From Nereocystis luetkeana (taxonomy: Eukaryota; Sar; Phaeophyceae; Laminariales; Laminariaceae), in the NCBI GenBank assembly GCA_031213475.1, contig JARUPZ010000004.1:868001-932000 (forward strand): a stretch of DNA of 64,000 nucleotides, given 5' to 3'. The notes under the pieces are model-generated. The model worked only from the letters and a program-made list of their open reading frames with translations. It did no database searches and was not told where the DNA came from. Shown one piece after another: positions 15,101-61,344 of this stretch. The first letter of the stretch is position 1. Each line of letters begins with the position of its first letter. The position numbers and the translations under genes were made by a program.

Positions 15101-18100
15101 ATTCAAATTGGATGAATCGGCTGCGATTCACAGCCCTATACGTATACCGATTTAATCATTTTTCGCCAGAAAGCCTTTCCCCCACGGATGGGTGCATACA
15201 ACGAAGAGTGAGGAAAACACGGAGAACCTTCTCATACTTTTCTGTCAAATATCTCACGAAAACCCCGGGGCGGCCTTCACGTACGCATATATGTATATAT
15301 TTATCAGAATTTTCTGACAAAGGAATCTCATATACCGCCGACACAACCAGTGTTGTATACCTGGTACACCATTTCGCCCAGTTTTCGACAAAATAGTTGA
15401 TAGCCCAAACTAACTCCTCAGTACGTCTTCAATCCGATAATTTTCCCGGACCGTCCGGCTTAGAGAGTATACTTCAATTACTTTGCCCAACCTGGGCCAA
15501 ACCGTGTACAGCCCTCGAAATGACCCTGACTGTTTACCCTTTTAGGACCGCAGTCCCGTTTTAGGGACAAACTACTTAGAATTAGAGTGGGTTGTCCCCA
15601 AAACGGGACTGCAGCTCTGAAGGGGTTATAACCGCTTTCGGACCCCGAGACAGCGACCGAAATTGTTAATAGGAGGTATCACCCTGTTCCTAAACACAAG
15701 GATCGATTTCATTCAGTATTGCTATACAAAATATCATTATACTTGGGGACAGAGTACCATAATATAAGTGTTACCGTCTACAAGCAGCGTGAACGCCTAG
15801 AGGTAGGGGTAGGATCATGTTGCGCCCGTGATCTAGGTCTCCCTTCATTGTAACTCGGCAATCACGCAGTGGCCGTCGCTGTAATCATACCAAGATTAGT
15901 AGTCACTTTTTGTCGCCAATTTTCCCCTCCGAAATCTAAAGAGTCATCAAAGAGTGCCCAACGACTCAAAAACTGCTCAAGAGAGGAGTTCACTACTACT
16001 ACTATTACGGGGGGCCATAGTTAACAGGACCAAATATTGTTAGTAAAAATGGTTAAACATATAGGTTTTTATGTATACCATAGGTCCTGTTAACTATGGT
16101 CCCCCGTAATATTAATAACACTACTACTACTACTACTATTACGGGGGGGCATAGTAAATAGAACCAAATACGGTGAGGAAAAATAGACAAATATGATGGC
16201 TTTTGTATGTACCATAGGTCCTACCAGGTATTAACTATGGTCCTCCGTAATAGTCAAAGGTTATCCAAGTACTACTTACACCAAGTCGTGTACAGCCCTC
16301 GAAACAAAATTGTTAAGGTACGAGTGTAAGTCCCACTGGGCTAGTAGGTTATCCAACTGCCCACCCGAAGCAACCCTTAATAGCATTGGCAGCACCAGTA
16401 GCACTATAGCACCAATACCACTACTAGGTAATATAATTAATAGCACTAATGAACGGCGGCAAAACATTGAAGCGGAACATCGACTGCCGAATCAGAATGA
16501 CGCAGACCTGTTCACGGGTCGGGTCAAACCTCGCGGGTCGGGTCGGGTCGGGTCGGAAAACTCTGACCGGACCCGACCCGACCCATGAGACCAATTACCT
16601 ACCCGACGTCAGATGTATTTAGAACTTACCTCCATGCTCGGGGGAGCGATGAAGACGTATTTAGGGCGCAGCGAGGAGCCTTTTACCGCCTTGACGCCCT
16701 GAACATCGATGTCTAGAAGGCACACCTTACAAAACGGGCCAGGATAAATGAAAGGGGGGCATGATGGCAGGGGGGACGCGGGCGGGGGTGTGCTCATTGT
16801 CATGCATGGTCGTTGTCATAATAGTAATATGATCATAAGCTCTCGCACTTCTACAATGGCGGGACGGATCACGTCGGGTTCCGAAGGGGGGGGGGGGGGG
16901 TACTCATTTGTTATTTGCCTTTCTCTTATGACCATTGACCACGCATACCTTTGAGGGGGGAGGGGGGGGGTACTCATTGCCGTGCTTAGCCGTAGCCTCA
17001 AGACCATAGACCCTCGAATGCCTACAATAGCCGCACGGGGGAGGGTAGAGTACTCATGCCATGCGCGGACAAAATCGTATGACCACAGACCCTTGCATCT
17101 TTACAATGCCGGGACGGGGCACGTCGGGTTTCACCGACAAGGCGATGGAGGGGGGGGGGGTGTCCTCATTGGCATGCATAGCCGTAGTCGTGGGACCATT
17201 GGCCCTCGCATCCTTACAATGCCGGGACCGAAGGGTGTACGTGTTGGGAGGATGTACTCATGACCTGCATGGCCGAAGTCGTATGACCGTAGACCCTCGC
17301 ATCTCTGCGATGCCGGGACGGAGCACGTCGGGTTTTCACCGACCAGGCAGACAATGCTTGGACCAAGCGCGAGGCGCCGTGAGGTGTTCGGCGAGTCACA
17401 TGAAGGGTGAGCTGCATCCTATGTGCCAATAACCGCTTGTGAGGCGGACTTTCTCGCATATGGATAACAGCTTCGAATCAATTGGTATCAGCAGAGACTG
17501 GGTGAGGGTTCGTTGCCTCGACGGTAAGAGCTTCCAGCGTAAACCGCGCACAAAAGTTGCTACGGCAGTACGAATGTACCAGCGTTGGACTTGAAACGAA
17601 AATAATACCTGGTATGTCGGAATCACATGCCGACCAAACCAATGGCCACTTGAAGCAACTCGAGTAGCCCGGGCTGCTAGGCTAGGGGGGGTGTCCCAAG
17701 CGCTGCACGTGCACTGCCTGCACTTATACACGACATCCACACCTCATTTCTGACGTATATTTTGTTTTATTTTGAAACATCAGCTCTGTGAGATCGAGGA
17801 TGTCGTCGAAGCTCATCTTTTCAAGGAAGCTGTGTGTGATACAAGTGATGGTGATACTGTGATCGTCGGGAGTACAGGTTACTATTAACCCCTTCAACAC
17901 CGCAGTCCCGTTTTGGGGACAAACTACTCGGAATTTGAGTGGTGTGTCCCCAAAAACGGGACTGCGGTTCTAAAAGGGTTAAAAATATATCATATTCATA
18001 TATTAAAAAACAACAGCTGTGAGGCTGGGTCTTATGCGATTTTTTTTCAATGATTGAAAAAGGCAGGAAGTCGGATTTTCCTACGGCAAAAAGCCACACC

Positions 18101-51014: not shown

Positions 51015-54000
51015 CTAATCAACCCTACCAATCCCACGGGTGGCGTTCCCGGTTATCACCTTTCCATCTTTGGCCTTGTTGACTCCACCACCGACCCCGC
51101 TCACGCCCCCCCCCCGCACCCCGACCACTCCCACCGCCCCACCGCTCCCGCCGCTCGTGTTTCCCCCTCGCAGCGCTTTGCGCTTCAGCTCCTCTCGTGT
51201 TAACGGCCTCTCGTCGTCTTCTTGGTCCGAGTCCTCGCCCGAGCTGAAGTCGTCCCATGCGGGGGGTTGTACGTTGAGCCGAGGCGGTACCGATCTCGCC
51301 GCATCTACGTCACCGTCTTCCAAGGAGCTTGGGAAGCCCTGGTGGTCGAATGGGATCGCGCAGGAGGAAGGGGGGGTCGGGGGGGGGGGGGGGGGGGGGT
51401 TAGTAGGGGAGTAGGAAGGGGAGGTACGTTTGGGCCAATTTATTTTTGACAGACGAGGGGGGTGTACTCGATACCTGGTATCATGCATGGATGTAGTCGT
51501 ACGACCACAGACCGGGGAGGTTCCTGGAGCGAGTAGTTGCCCATTGTGCCTTGAAGAGCCCTTCTACGGCAGGAGGTGTACTCATGATCATGATCATGGA
51601 TGGCCACGGTCGTGCGACCATAGGCTCCTCGTATCCCTACAATGCCGGGACGGAGTACGTCGGGTTTTCACCGACCGGGCAGACATTGCTCGCACCAAGC
51701 GCAAGCCTCCGTGGGGTGTTCGGCGGTGGAGGCGGAGAGGGTGCGTACGTACGGTGGATGGTGTCGATGTGGGGTTACCGCCTACTGGTAACTTGGCAAA
51801 CACGCAAGGCGATACTTTCTCCACCGATTTCCGACAAGATTTCCTCCAAAACATTCAAACAACGGAAATCGTGGTTTTGGACAACCCTTTGGGGCCATAT
51901 TTTCTCTAAAACAAGGGGGGGCGGGGCACACACAACAACTAAACATGGTGGATTTGGAAATATCTTGTCGAGATATTTCTATGGACGCTTCGATCGGCGC
52001 TTGCACTCTCCCCCTTGTCACGAAAATCAGCCCGGAAATTCCGGGTGTGTGTGTTATTTTATCACCCTAGTGTGATATATTATCACACGTGTGATAGCAA
52101 GGAAAAAATGAGGACACCTGAGTGCAACACTATAGAAGTGGAAACGACCAAGACTGTGATGAGGGAGGTACCCCCCTGTTCACTGTTTCGGCTCCATGAA
52201 TACAAAATAGCGTGAAATAAGAGCTAAAATATCACTTTTGGGGAAACGTTTCGAAGAAATTGGAAGAAAAAATCGTGCTCAGCTGCGATCGCTGCCATAC
52301 CTGGTACCAGGTTCCAGGTACCATGGTATATAATACGGATGGGGTCACGATACGGTTATGAGGTTTGCTAACAGTAGGCGTTTCTCGTAGGCGGGTCCAT
52401 ACTGCATCCCTATCAATAGGCCACTCGCTTGGGTGGACAAGTACCTTGCGCAAACAACGACTTCGAAAAATGCTGTTGGCGCAGCTTAACAAACGTTTCT
52501 ATAGCGGTCAAAAGCGTACCGGCCTGACCGGTAAGATAGGCTCAGTTTGACGTTTATGTTATATTTCAAACGTGGATTATATTTTCGTCCATAATATCAC
52601 ACTAGGGTGATAAGATAATACACCCCCTCGGACGATTTTCGAAGCTGTTTTTCTCCACAACGAGGAGAATGCAAACGCGGGGAGACTGCAAACCTCGAGC
52701 GATGCGCCTGCCTTGTTTAGGAGAAATCGGCTCGAGACATAATCCCAGGGGGTGGGGGTGTTAAGTTATCACCCTAGGGTGATACGGTATCGCGAAACGA
52801 AAGACGCCAAATATTAACACTGCAAAAACGTGCATAGGGTAGCCGTTCGCGCGAGTGGGTCTGAGCCGCTGAATAAAAAAAGAGCCGTCTCGAAAGGGAT
52901 GCGTGGTCAATGGTCAAATGACTAAGGCAGGCAGCACACGAGTACGCCCCCCCCCCTCTATACGTAGCCTAGATCGAATAGAAATACGCCGATACCAGCA
53001 TGATATGCAGTCGATGACAAAATCCGGCATCGAACCAGCTCGACGCTGCCTGTAATTCTGTTTTTAGCTTCGCTGTTTTGCGTGGAACTGGCTGCTAACT
53101 TCACTACGTACGGTGGCGCGGTATGGTACTCACCGAGGTGGTGCAATGTGATCCTACTGTGACTATGGTGGTGCATGATACCACAGAAGCAATGGTGGTG
53201 TAGTATCATACTACTGTGTCTAAGATGGAGCAGTATGATACTATTAATACGGTGACTACGGTGGTGTACGACAGTAGCTATGATGGTGTACTATGAAACT
53301 ATTAAAAACTATGGTGGTGCTGTATGGTACGAGCTGTACGGTGTGGGGTTGTCATACATGAACAGAGGCCTCCACCGGTTCCGAAAGGAACCTGGCGTAT
53401 TCTAGTACCTGTGTTTCCACTGCCTGTGTCATCTGTTGCGACGCTGCGTACGCCTGCAGTATCTCGCTCGTCCTCTGCTCGATGATGCCCAGGTACTGCA
53501 TCATGTTGGATTCCGTGACGCCCTGATTACCCAGCATCTCTTCCACCGACGAGTTGCTCCCGGCTCTGATTGTCGGACCAGGTCATCAGTTTATCACGCG
53601 CAAGCAGACACGGTGATACCAGTTACGGGCAGAGCTGTTATCTCCTCGAATACAGCGTTTTACCCCTCGGATGGCAGATCAGATAGATCATCTACATATC
53701 ATTCCGAAAGTTCATCATCTAGATCCAACACGGCAGATATGAATAAATCATCTATTCCCGATCTTGTATGATCTACAGCTCACGTTGCCGGTTGAGACCC
53801 GTATAATTTAACGATCTAGTGTATGTAGAACATGTTTCATGGATTGGATCTTCTCTATAAGGCAAATCCTGCACAACCTCTCACAACGGTAGGTGAGGAA
53901 CTAGATGATCTATCTGTATACAGATCAGATAGATAGATCATTACCCGCCCTACAGTACTGTGTGAAACATTTCGATCCACCACATGTATAGTGCAGTACT

Positions 54001-57000: not shown

Positions 57001-60000
57001 GCAATATTCTCTGACCGGTTGAGCTCCTGACTTGATGAACTATCGGTTAGTATTAATAGTATACTTTACTACAGTAGCATCTTTGTTTTTAGTGTTTTAC
57101 CTATTAGCACAAAGAGTTGTTGGCAGGATTGCGCGAACAAACTTCTTCCTTGTCATGTTTCGGAAGAGATTTTGAGCTCCTTATGTGAGGCAGTAGCTCA
57201 GAAATAAGACACTACCCCCATAAGGCATTGGTCGTGTACGTTGGACCACACACCTCTGTGGTGGTGAGTTGCTCCTCCAATCCTCGGAGGACCTTCTTCC
57301 TTTGTGTGTCGGTGCTCACCCCTTGCCCCTTGTACTTCTCGATGCTGTTCTTCGCTTCTGCAATCATCAGCTCCAGCCGCTCGATCTCGCTGCGTAGCGG
57401 GGGGTGGGAGGGGTACATAAAAGAGTAACAGCAACAATGTTTTGGCATCATCAGCTCCGGCCGCTCGATCTCGCCACGCCGGCGGGGGGCGGGGGGGGGG
57501 GGGGGGGGGGGGGGTACTCGTTCGTTGCTCGCCTTACTACTGCAGTCATTTGACCATTGACCACGCATCTATTTTGAGGCAGAGCACATACCAGCAACAT
57601 CATCAACAACAACACACAACAACGAACGCATCATGAGCAACAACCTCCATAACAATAACCACCACAACAATAACCACAATAACAATCACGACAACCGCAA
57701 CTACTACAGCAGCGCCTCAACCAGTTCGCTGCAGGAAAGGCAGTTCGTGTCCGGCGGCTGCACGCTTTTTAAACCCTAACTACGTCGCGGAAGGACAAAA
57801 AGATGGTATTTTTTGTCTTGTGTCTGTCGTGCAGGGTTATCGCCCTCCTAGTAGTTGGGGTTCCTCCAAATGTATTTGGTACCACAAGTCACAAAAAGAG
57901 TGAGTTACCAAATACCAGGTACCAATTACGGATTGAACAACATTTTCGCCCGAGGGGTGTTATGGTACTGCTTGGAATGAGGCCGACAGGCCGGGAATTA
58001 CCTGGGTTCTAAAATAAGTCATTAATACTGTTAGTAAGTCAAATGCACCATTTTCGCTTGGGGGGCTCTATACTATAAGTAAGTAGTTTTCACTATTACC
58101 AAGTCACCCAAAAACTGATTTCAAGAAAAACTATTGTAAAACTGCAACCCGATCAACAAATCCCACAGCAGTAGGTACCGTGTTTTTTGTCCCGATTTAT
58201 AAACACCGTTTGGATTAAATCTTCATACACCAAAGTTCCTTATATTATGGAACAGAGTGGCACAGAGGTGCTACCCCTACAGAGGTATCATAAAATGCAA
58301 CCCTTGCTGTGGCGCTTGTCGTCGTGTGTACTGTATGTGTTCGTGTGTTCCTTACCTGTTGAGTTCGTTCACGAAGTTGAAGAGGCTGAAATTTTTCTCT
58401 TCCGCCTGAAGGAAATTGTTGACCATGTCCGACACGTTGCTCATACCCGTGGCCTCCTTGATCTACCACAAATATATGGACCGAGCAACAATGTTTAAGC
58501 AATCTCGGACAAGATACGAGCGAGCTGGAGGAGTACGGTTAATACAATACCAGGTAGATGGTAGATGGGATGGAAAACGAAAAACTGCCCTAACAATATC
58601 TAGAAAATGAAATGGGGATCTGGTCTATCTGATCTATCTGATATGTCCGATGTGTGATCTGGGGATCTGATCGATCCGATCTATCTGATTTGACCGATGT
58701 GTGATAAGGGGATCTGATACATCTCTGATCGTTTTGATCTGTCCGATGTGTGAAAGGGGGGTCTATTTGATGTGCCTGATCTATCTGATCTATCTGCCTT
58801 ATCGTATCTATTTGATATGTCTGGTGTGTGAAAGGGGGATTTATCTAATCTGTCCGATCTGTGAACGGAGATCTGATACGAATATTTGATTTATCTGATT
58901 TGTCCGATGTCTGAAAGGGGGGTCTATCTGATTTGTCCGATATGTACGAAAAGTGATCTGATCTGTCCGATGTGTAAACTGGGCATCTGATCTATCTTAT
59001 CTATCTGATTTGACCGATGTGTAAACTGGGGGTCTGATCTATCTGACCTACCTGACCTACCTGATATATCCGATGTATGTGTGAAACGTTTCCCGTATAC
59101 TGTAGCTCACAAAAAAAAAGTCGATGGCCAGACCTTATTAAACGCAGCCTCGTAGGATTGTTCCGGCTGGCTGAAGGTTGTCTGCTGCCGGTCCTTCGAG
59201 CCGGGCCCCCACTCCTCCCCCCCGCTACCCGACATCAGCCTCTTTTCTTCCGCTCCGTCTCCCGCCGACTCTCCCTCGGCCCTGAAGTAGATTGACAGTA
59301 CCAAAACAGTAGGTACGCGACAGCAGTGAAGAATCTCCTATTTTGGCTATGGCTCGCGGCTTATTGTGATGTCAACGTTGAGCATAGGCTCGCAAAGGCT
59401 GTTAGACAGGATTTAGAAGGGTGCTGTTCCTCGCTGCGCACGAACGCTTAGCCTAAAATATTAAAACGTGAACAAATGCCAGCTTAAAATTCATAAACCC
59501 TCAATTTTTCAACACATATCACGCGCTGTACACACTACTAGGGTATTGTATGAATACAGTGCATTGGTAATAGTAACAGCACTCGAGATACTCGGAGTTA
59601 AGATTGGGGGTTCGGAAGTTTTCACAGATGGGACAGATAGTCGCTAACTTCACGATCTACGGTAGATCTTACAGGGCTGGATTTATTCTTGGAGTTGTAT
59701 GATCTGTATGATCTAGCTCGTGTTTCCGGGTGGGAGCCCGAATCGACCTTCTGAAAAAAAAAAAAACTCGTGCCTCAGCTGGACCGGCAGGATATACATG
59801 TCCTTCAAGAGGTCCTATAAAACTTCGCCACCCAACGAGTAACTATTAATAGTTGGCTTACTTAGCCACCCAACTAATACTGCATGTACCAGGTAGTTGG
59901 TTTACGTCGCCACCCAACGGGTAACTACTGCAGTTGGCTTACTTTGCCACCCAACTAAGAACTACAGTAATTTGCTTACTTCGCCACCCTACTAGAAACT

Positions 60001-61344
60001 AGTTGCTTATGTCGCAACCCAACTAGTAACTAGTTGGCTTACGTCGCCACCCAACGAATAATTACTGTAGTTGGCTTCGCCACCCCATGAATAACAATTT
60101 GGCCTCTCAACGAATAGCTATTAATAGTTATCTTACTTTTTCACCATCCATTTAGAAACGAGTCGGGTTGCTTTTTCGCCACCCAAATAATAACTAGTTG
60201 GCTTGCTTTTTCGCCACCCAACGAACAACTAGTTGGCTTACTTCGCCACCCAACGAATAACTAGTTGGCTTACTTTTTCGCCACCCAACCAACAACTATT
60301 AATAGTCGGCTTACTTCCCCGCTCAACTAGTAAATGGTTGGCTCACGTCGCCACCCAACGAATAGCTAGCCGTCAACGTCAAGTTCAGCCAATTATCAGC
60401 CCTATCGCAACGCTACTAATAGTACTTAACTTCACTCCCGAAAACACAATAAATAGTTTCGATGAAATCTTTGAGCTCACAGCTGATGGTTCAAAACATA
60501 AATACACATAGGCTCATTCTATAGAGGGGCAGGGTGGTAAACGGTGCTTACACCTAAACAAAGCACGACGATGCGCTTGATCTAACGGCACACACCTGAG
60601 ATCTCTGTTACGGTCGAGCTGCCTCTGACGCAGCGTCTCCCTAAGCTTCCTGTCCTGACCAATCAGCCTTCCCAGCTCTTTCCACTCCACGTCGAACTCG
60701 GCACGGTCCTTCTCCGCCTGTCCAGTTGGCGCCGAAGGACCCCGAGGAAGGAAGGCGTGGTAACCTCACGGTGAATACTACTGTACAGCACTTGTGTGTT
60801 CGATATTGAACAATACCATATATTTCGAAAGTTCGACAATTCGATGTATCGAAAAAAGCGATACGGTATCCAACACTACTCCGCTAACCTCAGGCTCGAT
60901 AGATGGGCTATGCCTGGTAAGCGTCAATATTTATTTGTACGAGTGGTGGACCTCGAACAAAACTATACGACATTCAACACTATTAATAGTAATACAACCT
61001 CAGGCTCAGTATGACTTCAGCGTCAACATACTAATATTCGATATCGTCTCCTGAAAAAAAACTAATACGTGAGCATCATCCCTTGAAAGAAATCAAATAC
61101 CCGGCAATACACCTACTTCGAAGTATATCTGTAAGCACGTGAAAAGTTTCATCCTGGCGCCTGCTGTGAAGGTGTTACCTACTACTGGGCTACAGGGATA
61201 CAATATCGATCGATTACCCAGCCCGGGGTAACCCTTAGAACACTCTCCCCTCCTCTGAACGGCGGGATACTTGGAGCGTCGGTACCATCGTAGACGACCG
61301 TACTCAGACCTACCCGCTTCGTTTCAGTACCTGGGGAGCCAGGG

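Follow-up and report, generated by a model that had tools for sequence, protein, structure and literature searches.

Short fillers at TA dinucleotides in the brown alga Nereocystis luetkeana as probable excision scars of Tc1/mariner-type transposons

Introduction

Why should a single TA dinucleotide of a satellite unit carry several kinds of short filler in neighbouring units? The question is raised by an array of roughly 32-bp units in Nereocystis luetkeana, which lies in a stretch of 64,000 nucleotides (bases 868,001-932,000 of contig 4, JARUPZ010000004.1, of the 465-Mb, 1,987-contig assembly GCA_031213475.1) that we call the window. A sequence-only reading of this array had proposed that the fillers are left by repeated insertion and imprecise excision of TA-targeting transposons. 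In this study, we describe the same filler words genome-wide, candidate parent elements, and target motifs common to both, and we consider the fillers, with a probability of roughly 0.87, to be the healed excision sites, or scars, of IS630-Tc1-mariner-type DNA transposons and of their miniature inverted-repeat transposable elements (MITEs).

Results

One TA of the satellite unit is a hot spot for short insertions

The TA in question lies in the unit motif AACTAGTTGG. The variants reported there by the sequence-only reading were all recovered, namely TATTAATA in three units and TACCAGGTA, TACTGTA, TACTGCA and TACAGTA in one each (Table 1), as were at least five plain-TA units, with CTAGTTG in five (starts 59980, 60013, 60175, 60210 and 60242) and CTAGCC in the last. 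Splitting the array at its GCCACC motif yields pieces of 31-44 bp, plus two of 64 and 72 bp that contain two units each. TACTGCA had been read as one transition away from TACTGTA, with which it is compatible, but TACTGCAGTTGG is present in three separate arrays (the window, L017 and L025), and TACTGCA may therefore reflect either shared descent, one decayed scar having been copied, or a different joint.

A DNA search of the genome with the array as query listed 69 matches, some 36 places by eye, and 35 genome stretches around such matches were fetched and given L-numbers (e.g. L009-L043). A formal unit alignment was then run on 37 array segments, amounting to 439 unit-lengths with the window array included (L022 and L043 being the same array sequence), which yielded 303 insertions; 128 of these measured 4-12 bp. 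At the three junctions touching the AACTAGTTGG TA lie 45 of these 128, five of them the window's own, where an even spread over 32 positions would give 12. The corresponding junctions of the second unit TA (CAAC-TA-ATAAC) hold 18 of the 128 and those of the third (CT-TA-CTTC) hold 6; 59 lie away from all three unit TAs. The AACTAGTTGG TA is therefore a hot spot, whereas not all TAs are hot and other kinds of insertion exist, and the scars are not spread equally over non-TA positions. That one TA has been hit repeatedly follows from the differences among units, but any single scarred unit may be a copy of another scarred unit. The scarred satellite word AACTACCAGGTAGTTGG has four exact occurrences in the genome (reversed control, 0). 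Since several of the arrays (window 59824-60372, L009-L043) share upstream (..TTGTTGATGAAAC..AAGTCAG) and downstream (GCCGTGAAGTCCAGCC..) sequence, the satellite seems to be carried by a dispersed repeat.

Scar words are over-represented in the window and the genome

The 465,085,209-base assembly contains 182,395 copies of TACCWGGTA, about one per 2.55 kb, against 1,744 for the reversed pattern. In the window, simulations of order 1 and order 3 predict 0.55-0.75 copies of TACCWGGTA (44 observed), 0.8-1.95 of TATTAATA (30 observed), 8.5-14 of TACWGTA (31 observed) and 1.0-1.15 of TACCGGTA (7 observed); an order-5 model, in which the scars are already learnt, predicts 10.5, 19, 26 and 1.7, respectively. 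A 248-kb set made up of the window and the fetched loci is not a random sample, yet the window alone gives the same picture. Against an order-3 Markov expectation, this set holds 132 TACCWGGTA (1.9 expected), 138 TATTAATA (13.7) and 38 TACCGGTA (5.2), both of the latter being palindromes counted on both strands, and 113 TACWGTA (34.6). By the order-1 and order-3 simulations of the window, a quarter to nearly half of TACWGTA words are attributable to chance, and so a single one is no proof of a scar.

In the 248-kb set TA comes next after TACCAGG in 132 of 184 cases. The flanks of TACCAGGTA share no sequence beyond weak position preferences, and within the window the word is scattered in a Poisson-like manner (variance/mean 0.93). 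The excess over expectation is 65.7 for one-mismatch relatives of TACCAGGTA and 138.8 for the perfect word, which corresponds to a change of about 6% per site; applied to the other two scar words, whose background is harder to remove, this crude estimate comes to roughly 11-12%. The 100 TACCWGG words without a following TA (52 + 48; 248 kb) share no continuation, by eye, that would reveal parents with CCAGG or CCTGG ends, and look like chance words or decayed scars.

Several further words were set aside. The excess of TACCGTA and TAGGACCTA comes largely from words internal to MITE1 (described below) and another repeat, TACGTA is in part microsatellite, and TA-CAGTGTCGTTG, considered as an element end, sits inside a larger repeat. 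TACCATA owes its excess partly to words internal to MITE1 or other repeats, but might also arise when CCA ends are joined. Part of the excess of ACTGCAGT comes from a piggyBac-like MITE. This MITE (TTAA-CCCTTTTAG, with ends like CCCTTTTAGAACCGCAGTCCCGTTTTGGGGACA) is found in the window at about 17981, 23807 and 38670, and in L011, L013, L020, L023, L027 and L030.

Homologous copies differ by insertions that duplicate TA

Homologous copies within the fetched DNA were compared by BLAST for length differences of 3-14 bp (n=1,585, a few sites being called twice). Insertions that duplicate TA are the commonest dinucleotide class, with 108 of the 1,585; the other fifteen dinucleotides have 8-53 each, TT coming next with 53. 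The commonest fillers at a duplicated TA are a single A (20) and a single C (12), both probably ordinary slippage, and among fillers of at least 2 nt the leading ones are CCAGG (12), TTAA (8) and CAG (6). Each scar type consists of TA, filler and TA where other copies have plain TA, that is, an inserted sequence at TA with the TA duplicated, as in IS630-Tc1-mariner footprints. Such paired alleles are seen inside MITE1, the satellite and other repeats; the MITE1 copy at 16137-16252, for example, reads GGTCC-TACCAGGTA-TTAACT where other copies read GGTCC-TA-TTAACT.

Candidate parents end in TTA, CCA or CAG

The candidate source of TATTAATA is MITE1, TA-TTACGGGGGACCATAGT...ACTATGGTCCCCCGTAA-TA, which is usually 109 bp from TA to TA, has ends of the form TA-TTACGGGGG.., and is represented by 34 rows, some of them one copy read from both strands. 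The copy at 16137-16252 is longer because a TACCAGGTA scar (16222-16230) occupies an internal TA. Full elements at the satellite TA, which had been suggested as something to look for, were found in the form of whole MITE1 copies (clearly so in L021 and L030, L020 being a less clear case), but at the unit's other TA and not that of AACTAGTTGG. When MITE1 is removed on paper and its flanks are joined, a plain satellite unit results, e.g. GTCATCCAGC-TA-ATAACTTAGT in L021, which argues that the TTA belongs to MITE1 and not to the target. Well-matched MITE1 ends have TTA in 41 of 51 cases and GTA in 3 of 51; the outer TA is present in 43 of 51. Two other affiliations were considered and rejected. 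TTAA duplication and footprint-free excision are hallmarks of piggyBac; although TTAA is part of TATTAATA, MITE1 duplicates TA and its ends are TTACGGGGG. PIF/Harbinger elements have a 3-bp TWA duplication; MITE1 is flanked by TTA on the left and TAA on the right, the direct repeat being TA alone.

The candidate source of TACCWGGTA is MITE2, TA-CCACTCTGTCC...GGACAGAGTGG-TA, which spans 82-83 bp at seven of the nine loci fetched and shows one end only at the other two. Its 13-base end, searched with a non-A twelfth base before it, has 1,471 exact matches in the genome. Many of these exact ends share one of two longer flanks (GCTGTACTGGCA- and CTCGTACGTACC-TACCACTCTGTCC), and copies or ends with those flanks probably ride inside two larger repeat families; two loci with the GCTGTACTGGCA- flank showed a single MITE2 end. 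On nearly the same DNA there are 141 perfect TACCWGGTA and 35 recognisable MITE2 ends (18-35 copies).

For the CAG class, a DDE/D transposase with matching ends is present. The element in L063 (1852-4463) is 2,612 bp from TA to TA, begins TA-CAGTGG.. and has TACAGTGGGGGGCCCTATATAGTGCAGG at both ends; its open reading frame (ORF) matches HTH_Tnp_Tc5 (5.6e-5) and DDE_1 (5.9e-27), the latter over positions 1-137 of the 177 in the profile. Judged by these matches it is a pogo-type element, and such an element would be predicted to leave TACWGTA. In a second DDE_1 locus, L064, just one side carries the end seen in L063; the DDE_1 profile has 28 matches in the genome. Inverted-repeat scans for TA-bounded pairs of terminal inverted repeats (TIRs) yielded mostly MITE1 and simple repeats.

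Scar fillers correspond to two or three terminal bases of each candidate parent end

Joints of the form TA, first i and last j bases of each parent end, TA were counted on 287 kb, alongside three control ends. MITE2 joints peak at 3+2 and 2+3 nt (one word in two strand readings), with 141 observed against 2.2 expected, followed by 2+2 nt (44 against 6.2). MITE1 joints peak at four filler nucleotides (156 against 14.6) and CAG-end joints at three (132 against 39.1). At these peaks the filler corresponds to 2-3 terminal element bases per side, and longer joints are rare.

Scars and candidate parents share target motifs

Flanks were compared after removal of satellite-like sites, with 28,456 TA flanks as background. 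An outward GT at +1+2 after the TA occurs in 39 of 116 TTAA-scar flanks (33.6%) and 14 of 41 MITE1 flanks (34.1%), as against 1,753 of all 28,456 (6.2%); in CCWGG-scar flanks it is at background (17/264). Those flanks have a second TA at +6/+7 instead, in 90 of 264 (34.1%) compared with 2,380 of 28,456 for all TA (8.4%). MITE2 flanks were taken from the first 100 of the 1,471 genome matches, with 50 rows dropped whose flank resembled one of the two larger repeats, and have the second TA in 13 of 50 (p=4e-4 when tested against 9.1%; p=0.24, no difference, against 34.7%). CCWGG-scar (17/264) and MITE2 (3/50) flanks alike avoid A at +1. TACCGGTA is probably a minor joint of a MITE2-type family, because its flanks lean the same way (TA at +6/+7 in 9 of 44). 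Since TA-CCWGG-TA would itself offer a TA-N5-TA target, scar pairs with a common TA are to be expected; there are eight such CCWGG pairs among 141 scars, a count that has no control for comparison. The satellite TA may be hit so often because AAC-TA-GTT resembles TAC-TA-GTA, the motif targeted by the TTA-ended MITE and, to a weaker degree, seen at CAG scars.

Table 1. Positions in the window of the satellite array, its scars, MITE copies and two reading frames.
Feature	Start	End	Strand	Details
Satellite array	59824	60372	+	period about 32 bp, unit GCCACCCAACTAATAACTAGTTGGCTTACTTC; 37 segments aligned
TATTAATA scar	59844	59851		MITE1 type, TTAA filler
TACCAGGTA scar	59887	59895		MITE2 type, CCWGG filler
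TACTGCA	59926	59932		possibly decayed TACTGTA; same word in L017, L025
TACAGTA scar	59963	59969		CAG type
TACTGTA scar	60063	60069		CAG type
TATTAATA scar	60119	60126		
TATTAATA scar	60297	60304		
MITE1 copy	2676	2797		122 bp TA to TA; carries TACCAGGTA scar at 2698
MITE1 copy	16003	16111		109 bp TA to TA (TA-TTACGGGGG..CCCCCGTAA-TA); right TA then TTAATA
MITE1 copy	16137	16252		116 bp
MITE1 copy	19834	19943		
MITE1 copy	21965	22073		
MITE1 copy	24060	24168		
MITE1 copy	56826	56934		
MITE2 copy	61594	61676		83 bp TA to TA (TA-CCACTCTGCCCC..GGACGGAGTGG-TA)
MITE2 copy	63316	63398		diverged, 83 bp
LINE-like ORF	32485	33498	-	
Ankyrin-repeat ORF	702	1739	-	followed by long polyglutamine

Other repeats in the window

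A recurrent palindrome, TATCACCCTAGGGTGATA, stands beside ..AACACACCCCC.. in the window (52059-52784 and 21758) and in L011, L013, L022 and L028, and apparently forms the ends of another repeat. The ORF resembling a long interspersed nuclear element (LINE) has 357 relatives; the sole named eukaryote among the 120 matches listed is Ectocarpus (44% identity). The best database match of the ORF (76%) is labelled a Parasphingorhabdus metagenome-assembled genome protein, and probably reflects algal DNA that was binned with bacteria.

Discussion

The proposal that TA-transposon insertion and imprecise excision produced the fillers is supported by the prevalence of TA-duplicating insertions, by the candidate parents, and by a target preference common to parents and scars. 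Its comparison with Sleeping Beauty-type footprints holds for TACWGTA, which is of the CAG type, but TATTAATA and TACCWGGTA fit MITEs ending in TTA and CCA instead. Scars at TA, empty and filled alleles, and the retention of mostly no more than 3 nt per side are what we observe; from these we infer an enzyme, an overhang and end joining, and the register rule below is our own. An element would enter at TA, duplicating it. On exit, its transposase would cut at TA on the 3' ends but 3 nt within the element on the 5' ends, so that each flank would end in TA followed by three terminal element bases, in the form of a 3' overhang, and the two overhangs would rejoin in whichever register pairs best, so that one rule could yield all three scars. 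CAG ends would overlap by 3 bases and give TACWGTA, with one mismatch fixed either way; TTA ends would overlap by 2 bases and give TATTAATA; and CCA ends would overlap by 1 base and give TACCWGGTA, or TACCGGTA if that base is lost. For Tc1/mariner enzymes, PMC8151067 describes cutting of the non-transferred strand a few bases inside the element, 3' overhangs and repair by end joining.

A number of observations weigh against this interpretation. The 1-nt register, with its A:A mismatch, is less obvious for CCA ends than the other two registers. A search of the genome with the DDE_3 profile gave 0 matches, and no transposase is tied to MITE1 or MITE2. Relative to an approximate consensus of the MITE2 end, local copies carry 3-7 differences in 25 bases, whereas TACCWGGTA has decayed by about 6% per site; since the copies have diverged more than the scars, the main maker of TACCWGGTA may be a younger CCA-ended relative. 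Target motifs are also imperfectly partitioned: weaker MITE2 sets have TA at +6/+7 in 4 of 17 and 5 of 33 (the latter set being permissive), TTAA scars have it as well (20/116, p=0.0015), and GT is missing from the two flanks of the sole complete CAG element (L063) and present in 46 of 238 CWG-scar flanks, a good part of the CWG-scar words in that set being chance words. In the joint tables, joints with 4-5 nt of one end are slightly high (observed/expected 5/1.4 for MITE2; 24/15.5 and 9/2.4 for MITE1; 2/0.1 and 2/0.0 for CAG), one control end has excess cells (7/1.5, 6/0.6 and 6/0.4), and another matches a MITE1-internal word (25/0.9). Finally, other causes, or a mixture of causes, lie behind the excess of several short words (TACGTA 308/122, TATATA 518/208, TACATA 255/125, TACCATA 71/36, TACGGTA 78/31), with microsatellites and MITE1-internal sequence accounting for part of it.

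Among the alternatives, the one that deserves most attention is that the scars come mainly from another mariner family with CC(A/T) ends, MITE2 merely having the same target preference. The older appearance of MITE2 copies and the failure of the DDE_3 search of the genome to find an active partner speak for it; we regard it as a distinct but minority possibility, given that MITE2 has a terminal CCA, a TA duplication, 1,471 exact end matches and the same unusual TA-N5-TA target motif. It is improbable, in our estimate, that the scar words are instead pre-existing preferred targets or binding motifs, MITE1 entering the central TA of TATTAATA and TACCWGGTA being used likewise. A MITE1 between TATTA.. 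and TAATA can indeed be read both ways, and 3 of 51 well-matched ends have GTA in place of TTA. Against this, TTA is conserved about as well as the outer TA (41/51 and 43/51), and the filled units of L021 and L030 collapse to a single plain TA if TTA is the element's. Plain TA is the common state of the satellite, with 45 insertions at the AACTAGTTGG TA in 439 unit-lengths, and preferred targeting leaves the excess of about 10-fold for TATTAATA and 70-100-fold for TACCWGGTA without explanation. Least credible of all is an origin by replication slippage, hairpin-templated repair or unit-to-unit conversion. The unit is nearly palindromic (CCAACTAGT/ACTAGTTGG) and scarred units could plausibly be copied inside an array, but identical words occur genome-wide in unrelated flanks, so the variants are not an array-confined nested series, and apart from TA the fillers do not copy adjacent bases.

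If the fillers are indeed excision scars, excision of a DNA transposon, normally invisible afterwards, can here be counted by one 9-mer in plain sequence. We give about even odds to a broader view in which the scars can be read as a fossil record of some 180,000 or more departures from one family, with excisions exceeding resident copies several-fold, the filler alone naming the family, MITE turnover by excision at a rate not documented in the literature searched, and scars attracting further insertions through the recreated TA-N5-TA target. All families together would amount to several hundred thousand departures if the window is typical, some of these being copies made along with duplicated repeats. 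Should the register rule be true, an excess of TA-filler-TA words could be used in any genome to tell which TA elements have been active, families now extinct included, and to read off their terminal bases, the length of the overhang and the motif targeted; the ratio of MITE excision to insertion could be measured from a single assembly. The scars also provide an abundant natural supply of insertions 5-7 bp long.

No genome-scale scar census was found in the literature searched, and no transposon title is among the matches listed for TACCAGGTA as a letter string. Footprints of Sleeping Beauty/Tc1, as presented in PMC8151067, involve a TA target and its duplication, a terminal CAG triplet left behind, 3' overhangs and repair by non-homologous end joining. 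TACWGTA is the same word at the same kind of target, yet theirs is an experimental donor-site product and ours a natural record, in which TTAA and CCWGG joints are more over-represented. Grass Stowaway/mariner MITEs leave differing short footprints at one orthologous TA, with 1-4 bp of TIR kept (PMC1925063); there, one intron has five footprints, whereas here one type alone has more than 180,000 sites. MITE1 and MITE2 work like Stowaway and have a similar TA duplication, but we do not class them as such, their ends being TTACGGGGG and CCACTCTGTCC and not CTCCCTC (as tabulated in PMC4423477). Ectocarpus, another brown alga, has almost 12,000 Mariner-Tc1 copies, most of them non-autonomous, according to PMC12477816, in whose main text "footprint" and "excision" have 0 occurrences, so that it holds no Ectocarpus scar census under those words. 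For rice mariner elements, PMC4423477 reports a genome-wide survey in which insertions exceed excisions 2.6-2.8 to 1; in contrast to this dominance of insertions, the perfect TACCWGGTA counted here stand at 141 to 18-35 recognisable MITE2 copies. Altogether, transposon footprints of this sort are ordinary in kind, and what is unusual in N. luetkeana is their scale, the assignment of several joints to candidate families, and the extent to which they outnumber recognisable resident copies.

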